Source: Nodosilinea foveolarum (GTDB taxonomy: Bacteria; Cyanobacteriota; Cyanobacteriia; Phormidesmidales; Phormidesmidaceae). Taken from it: a stretch of 64,000 nucleotides of DNA. The position numbers and the translations under genes were made by a program. Under the pieces are notes generated by a model, which worked only from the letters and a program-made list of their open reading frames with translations, was not told the DNA's origin and searched no databases. Shown in pieces: positions 55,228 to 56,257 of the stretch; position 1 is the stretch's first letter; every line of letters begins with the position of its first letter. The stretch lies in the NCBI GenBank assembly GCA_003242035.1, contig QBMC01000001.1, positions 1 to 64,000 on the forward strand. The letters are read 5' to 3'.

Positions 55228-55642
55228 GGCGAAAACCCTCTTTCCTAAAATTTAGGACTAAACATTACAGAACTAAGATGGTGGAAGCTCTGATGTATTC
55301 ATCCTAAAACGGCTGTTGCTAGAAGCTACGTTAGATAGACATTTGCGAAGATATTTGAATAAATATCTACGGGCAATTTCTACCATAGGGCTTACGCATT
55401 GACGCCGTGACTGGTTTGACGGGGCAAGTGGCTTGGTGACGGTGGATGTGGACCGGCGGCAGGTGGTGAGGCGGATGCCGGATGAGGTAAGGGCGATCGC
55501 GGCTAAAGTAACGGCTGGCCTCAGCATAGAACAACGCTGATTCGAAAGTGAAAAAAGGTCTCATCTTCAGCATTAACTGTCAAGAGAGCGCCGAGAATTG
55601 ATAATTGCTCATAATGTTACAACTCTTATTATTTGAGGCGAC

Positions 55643-55727
55643 TTCTCCACAGGTTTTCCACAGATTATGAAGCGGTTATCCACAGGTTAAGACGTGGATT
55701 GGTGGTTTTGCTCTCTTTTGTGGATTA
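55643..55727. promoter_or_regulatory. cluster of DnaA-box-like 9-mers
   Basis: TTCTCCACA 55643-55651, TTTTCCACA 55654-55662, TTATCCACA 55676-55684 (perfect consensus), TGTGGATTA 55719-55727 (reverse). Confidence 0.65.
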
Positions 55728-56026
55728 CTTTTGGCTTGGTTAAAAAGAGACGGTGCGGCGCATTATCGTTAAGCTAAGTAACAAAAAGGGGCTTGAAATA
55801 GCTATTTTTTTGCGAAATTTTTTTTGTCAAGGGGAGGCAGCAACTTTGAATCAGTTGCCTTTTATAGAAGTATCTACCACAATAAAGCTCCGCTTGAGAG
55901 AAACGTTGTTTTTACGCGAATGCGAGCTTTGTTTGTATGGTGCGATACTCCGTAAGAGTGGCCTTGCGATCGCGGTATTACTCAGCGTTTTCTAAGGCGA
56001 AATTTTTTCAAAAAGGAGTCGTTGCG

Positions 56027-56257
56027 ATGCAGCAATCTATTAGCTTGTCAGTTGAAATTCCTGAGGATCTGCATGCTTCCGTTCAATACTATTTAGATAT
56101 TCATTCTGGCTGGAGCCAGGATCGGTTATTTTGTGCAGCACTGTCTTTATTCTTGATGCAGAATGGTGTTACCGAGCGGCAGATTAGCCGAATTTATTTA
56201 GATAGTCTGTTTGGCCAGCAGCCAGGAAGTAGAGAAATGGCTAATTCTAACCCTTAG
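56027..56257 (+). CDS. DUF2811 domain-containing protein
   Basis: RBS AAGGAG at about 56013, ATG 56027; MQQSISLSVEIPEDLHASVQYYLDIHSGWSQDRLFCAALSLFLMQNG. Confidence 0.82.
   Translation: MQQSISLSVEIPEDLHASVQYYLDIHSGWSQDRLFCAALSLFLMQNGVTERQISRIYLDSLFGQQPGSREMANSNP

Follow-up and report, generated by a model that had tools for sequence, protein, structure and literature searches.

A phased DnaA-box cluster conserved upstream of the DUF2811 gene is probably a DnaA control site of Cyanobacteriia and not a replication origin

A tight cluster of DnaA boxes at a distance from any dnaA or dnaN gene raises the question of whether it starts replication, captures DnaA or controls a gene. For the cluster considered here, the original prediction had named the chromosomal oriC, a secondary or relic origin, a DnaA titration site and a DnaA-regulated promoter of the DUF2811 gene as candidates. 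Comparison of the window (the whole 64-kb stretch of DNA analysed) with other genomes of the class indicates, with high probability, that the cluster is not oriC but an ancient DnaA control site in front of DUF2811, present nearly class-wide. The elements of the locus are as follows.

55616-55633, no strand assigned: AT-rich block GTTACAACTCTTATTATT preceding the boxes, conserved among genus members, with a similar block in Nostocales and no TAG-trio repeat
55643-55651, plus strand: DnaA box 1, TTCTCCACA, one mismatch, 2-bp gap before box 2, aligning with boxes of genus relatives
55654-55662, plus strand: DnaA box 2, TTTTCCACA, exact, the usual cyanobacterial form, identical in 7 of 7 aligned genus members
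55676-55684, plus strand: DnaA box 3, TTATCCACA, exact, 22 bp after box 2, position conserved in the genus
55719-55727, minus strand: inverted DnaA box, TAATCCACA, one mismatch, beginning 43 bp after box 3
55765-55782, minus strand: weak, tentative HLR1-like (RpaB-type) element, three mismatches here and 0-1 in some relatives
55855-55883, plus strand: predicted DUF2811 promoter, TTGCCT-N17-CACAAT, aligned to the TTGACA-N17-19-CANAATNA of relatives
56027-56257, plus strand: DUF2811 gene (PF10929, Pfam E 3.4e-23), 76 aa, the proposed target of the DnaA site

A motif scan recovered every box that had been proposed, at 55643, 55654, 55676 and, in reverse, 55719, and the starts of the three direct boxes are indeed 11 and 22 bp apart; the site at 55692, described as weaker, is too weak to count as a DnaA box. 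The AT-rich left flank is likewise present, and its core at 55616-55633 is conserved within the genus. Sites with at most one mismatch to TTWTCCACA number 25 in the 64-kb window, of which 4 fall within the 85 bp from 55643 to 55727, whereas in 150 first-order Markov shuffles of the window, scored at the same threshold, the maximum in any 85 bp was one box (85 times), two (64 times) or three (once), and never four. The window shows no general enrichment in boxes (75 degenerate matches against 82 expected), and isolated boxes occur near background, because exact TTWTCCACA is found 79 times genome-wide compared with 63 for reversed-motif controls. Tight pairs (TCCACAN{2,13}TTWTCCACA), on the other hand, are restricted in this genome to the window site, oriC and the region upstream of a DUF2811 paralogue on contig C294. 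A structured RNA at the cluster was ruled out, the 50-62 kb interval giving no Rfam match.

Conservation argues strongly for a regulatory role. A DNA search with 55560-55860 returned short matches that, in other genera and families, lie 300-500 bp before DUF2811, and 2-6 boxes are found about 200-600 bp upstream of DUF2811 in more than 20 families, marine picocyanobacteria included. These boxes lie mainly on the sense strand with modal spacings of 11/12 and 21/22 bp, often followed 43/44 bp downstream by an inverted box, a distance that recurs across families; pairs separated by 2-3 bp are part of the pattern, as in the 2-bp gap between the boxes at 55643 and 55654. Among 172 distinct DUF2811 upstream regions of Cyanobacteriia, drawn from species representatives, 135 carry a strict phased cluster, as against 0 of 3,440 shuffles, and exact boxes average 1.69 per region, whereas shuffles give 0.019, the reversed motif 0.017 and downstream sequence 0.13. 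Many of the 37 regions failing the strict test do so because all their boxes carry one mismatch. The arrangement also accompanies paralogues: the copy on C294 is preceded by boxes, the inverted sequence and TTGACA-N17-CAAAAT, and one picocyanobacterium has three DUF2811 paralogues, all with boxes. The other neighbours of the window gene are not common beyond close relatives; Usp occurs at 15 of 192 DUF2811 loci, almost all of the same genus, sulfite reductase adjoins DUF2811 in this genome only, and across 20 diverse loci no neighbour family recurs in more than five. The divergent Usp gene was considered as the true target and rejected, Usp not being a conserved neighbour. The site is thus kept beside DUF2811 and its paralogues even as the other genes around them differ, and the proposal of a DnaA-regulated promoter for DUF2811 finds strong support in this conservation; we regard the cluster as very likely a DnaA-controlled cis-element of that gene.

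A sigma70-like promoter motif, TTGACA-N17-19-CA(C/G/A)AAT(G)A, also proves conserved when upstream regions are aligned, whether from the genus, from Nostocales or from other Leptolyngbyaceae. It follows the boxes at a distance of about 150-200 bp and as a rule precedes the start codon by 120-275 bp. The strict form of this motif is present in 78 of the 172 upstream regions, compared with 0.2% of shuffles and one control region. A generic promoter scan did not report 55855-55883, so that the predicted promoter of the window is an assignment by alignment; transcription would start from it at about 55890. Between boxes and promoter, an HLR1-like element is enriched in some relatives and weak in the window; the presence of this RpaB-type repeat in several relatives suggests that light/redox and replication control might act jointly on the gene.

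A second line of evidence links the gene family to DnaA itself. In a sample of 390 genomes of the class, each at least 95% complete, DUF2811 is present in 370 of the 372 genomes with dnaA, and the two lacking it are both fragmented drafts whose congeners have the gene. Of 18 genomes without dnaA, 13 have no DUF2811, two retain stop-interrupted remnants and three (G106, G230 and G313) keep it intact. The resulting comparison (370 with and 2 without DUF2811 among dnaA-positive genomes, 5 and 13 among dnaA-less ones) gives a Fisher value of 1.4e-18, which overstates the significance because the genomes share ancestry. Counted by genus and family labels and not on a tree, the losses nevertheless represent roughly 6-8 separate lineages: dnaA is missing in f28/g46, f28/g45, f28/g200, f31, f38, f29/g76, f30/g47 and f27/g73, and DUF2811 is gone or broken in f28/g46, f28/g45, f28/g200, f31, f38, f29/g76 and one of three g73 genomes. 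Generic gene loss was rejected as the cause, since DUF3007, another family of small cyanobacterial proteins, is retained in 17 of the 18 dnaA-less genomes. Upstream boxes, too, are mostly or wholly lost in genomes without dnaA; for example, G106 has none before DUF2811 whereas its dnaA-positive congener G170 has four, and six of the nine dnaA-less genomes tested contain no tight pairs. The usual co-loss of DUF2811 with dnaA therefore connects an uncharacterised protein with replication control. Outside the class, members of the phylum with dnaA lack DUF2811, except for one marginal match.

In the dnaA-less genomes G530 (L303) and G196 (L304), DUF2811 remnants carry in-frame stops and the upstream boxes are mostly gone, an apparent decay of the gene after the loss of dnaA. 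The four genomes of genus g40 possess both dnaA and DUF2811 with almost no boxes upstream of the latter, and in one of them, G069, the region retrieved around dnaA contains no exact box; this genus may be partway through losing its dependence on DnaA. Boxes before DUF2811 are eroded, with dnaA present, at L097, L103, L104 and L105 of g40 and also at L297.

As to mechanism, DnaA would bind the paired boxes cooperatively, an 11/12-bp distance between starts leaving a gap of 2-3 bp, with further DnaA one or two turns away; the DnaA of E. coli binds cooperatively and prefers boxes paired 2-3 bp apart (PMC11317965). From its position about 200 bp upstream, bound DnaA would then alter the transcription of DUF2811, probably activating it and possibly by looping, such that the level of DUF2811 would follow active DnaA or replication status, and the protein would act in a pathway that serves a purpose only in the presence of DnaA, for which feedback on DnaA or initiation, or the coupling of replication to another process, are candidates. 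From the comparative data, activation appears the better guess than repression, by a modest preference: the co-loss speaks mildly for activation, or for a protein that is of use only together with DnaA. The boxes are, however, about 150-200 bp from the promoter, a long way for activation of the classical kind.

The best functional analogue is sda of Bacillus subtilis, where DnaA directly activates the gene for a small checkpoint protein (PMC4447404, PMC8203912); the reading preferred here is that DnaA would regulate DUF2811 transcription directly in an analogous way. Both systems place a multi-box DnaA cluster outside oriC and upstream of the gene for a very small protein. They differ in that the DUF2811 boxes lie about 150-200 bp upstream of the predicted promoter and in that DUF2811 matches its own Pfam family only; co-loss with dnaA, examined here in DUF2811, was found for that family.

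The protein itself is 60-90 aa long across the family, with the consensus VSILAEIPExLHESLxxYLExHPxWDQDRVFxAALSLFLLQNG..ARVYLDTLF. Its AlphaFold model (pLDDT 81, pTM 0.62) has an extended N-terminus followed by three helices. The order of extended N-terminus, helix 13-25 and helix 31-45 resembles that of ribbon-helix-helix (RHH) proteins of the CopG/Arc type, and we read the modelled topology as compatible with the RHH order, an unproven assignment; in contrast to those proteins, DUF2811 has an additional third helix and a near-invariant Glu in the putative strand. Searches for an RHH identity, in which NCBIfam was included, gave no RHH match by Pfam (even at E<=10, where DUF2811 matched only its own family), PDB sequence or Foldseek; the PDB yielded neither a sequence match nor a confident fold match. 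In the 5.39 million papers of the open-licence PMC literature searched, DUF2811 is mentioned neither by name nor by accession, and nothing relevant to it was found on cyanobacterial DnaA ChIP-seq.

These observations bear on a known puzzle. DnaA-dependent replication, or dnaA itself, has been lost several times in cyanobacteria; Nostoc sp. PCC 7120 can replicate without DnaA, and in Synechocystis DnaA is both dispensable and undetectable (PMC7198777). Deletion of dnaA is viable in Nostoc sp. PCC 7120 and Synechococcus sp. PCC 7002, and strains with HA-tagged DnaA, together with an oriC assay, exist for S. elongatus PCC 7942 (PMC7198777). According to Ohbayashi et al. 2020 (PMC7198777), what DnaA does in species that retain it although their replication does not require it is unclear. 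A putative class-wide target gene with phased boxes, belonging to a family gone or decayed in most lineages that lost dnaA, offers a concrete and testable answer. Tentatively, and at somewhat below even chances, DUF2811 could be a dedicated partner or output of DnaA, a small regulator switched by DnaA that acts back on initiation or links replication with the physiology of the cell, and where DnaA is retained while dispensable for replication, control of DUF2811 might be what keeps dnaA under selection. The class-wide conservation of the boxes and the co-loss of DUF2811 with dnaA go beyond what the reading of a single sequence could show; they give an initial clue to the function of DUF2811, and the cis-element could be used in cyanobacteria to report DnaA activity.

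Of the other explanations, the one that survives best, improbable as it is, would make the cluster a chromosomal titration or conversion site for DnaA comparable with datA or DARS, with DUF2811 a nearby partner or bystander. Multiple boxes of the high-affinity type outside oriC would be expected of such a site, and datA, DARS and the DnaA-binding region at gcp-ydiF of B. subtilis are likewise box clusters away from oriC; moreover, several genomes contain 3-box arrays of a different class, not associated with DUF2811, so that these bacteria do have DnaA sites other than promoters. Those known regions, however, have not been described as promoting a gene conserved alongside them, whereas the site studied here follows a gene family. 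Pure titration fits poorly because the cluster stays with DUF2811, and stands before its paralogues too, despite the change of neighbours; in addition, a promoter motif lies between boxes and gene, and the disappearance of the protein along with dnaA would be left unexplained.

Still less probable is that another protein with a similar motif binds the boxes and that their connection with dnaA is indirect, as might arise from a change in ploidy or in the mode of replication. Loss of dnaA does accompany polyploidy and replication independent of DnaA (PMC7198777), and DUF2811 could thereby become dispensable in another way, but the motif equals the boxes of the genomes' own oriC, down to the 11-bp spacing, and it is lost where dnaA is lost. 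Nostocales retain boxes and gene even though Nostoc sp. PCC 7120 does not need DnaA to replicate.

The remaining possibility, that DnaA starts replication at this cluster as main, secondary or relic origin, is barely credible: box number, 11-bp phasing and the AT-rich left flank are oriC-like, but the oriC of this genome, with nine exact boxes in 186 bp, lies on another contig between dnaN and dnaA (G000:C221:21418-21603). These two genes are, as the original prediction held, absent from the window, and finding the denser cluster beside them refutes the oriC reading in just the way that it had foreseen. At C221 the boxes adjoin AAGTAGTAGTAGTAG, a TAGx4 repeat of the DnaA-trio type, an origin element (PMC8287927), which is missing at the window site; in other genomes, 8 of 11 inspected regions that are dense in boxes or close to dnaA contain TAG repeats, as against 0 of 172 DUF2811 upstream regions scanned for TAGx3. 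The site thus shares TTTTCCACA boxes and 11-bp phasing with the cyanobacterial oriC of the dnaA-dnaN region but has fewer boxes, lacks the TAG DnaA-trios and lies away from those genes. A secondary or relic origin is unsupported because the trio is absent at all 172 sites and the copies follow the gene family; some genomes would require up to five such origins, each beside a DUF2811 paralogue. GC skew, a weak test on a single contig, is positive throughout 50-62 kb with no sign change at the site.

Box arrays in other settings were also encountered. Three exact boxes 20-22 bp apart, intergenic and without DUF2811, are present around position 2250 in L153-L159 and L161, from several families, and constitute candidate datA/DARS-like sites. 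The 3-box array adjoins guaA (GMP synthase) in L153, L154, L156, L157 and L164, is near a cation-efflux-type gene in L155-L157 and lies between convergent genes in L156 and L157; no array of this class was found in the window genome. In G069, two near-identical 4-box DnaA arrays (L162 and L163, at G069:C1:902739 and 2973233) each stand beside duplicated ORFs and possibly represent a mobile element carrying DnaA boxes.
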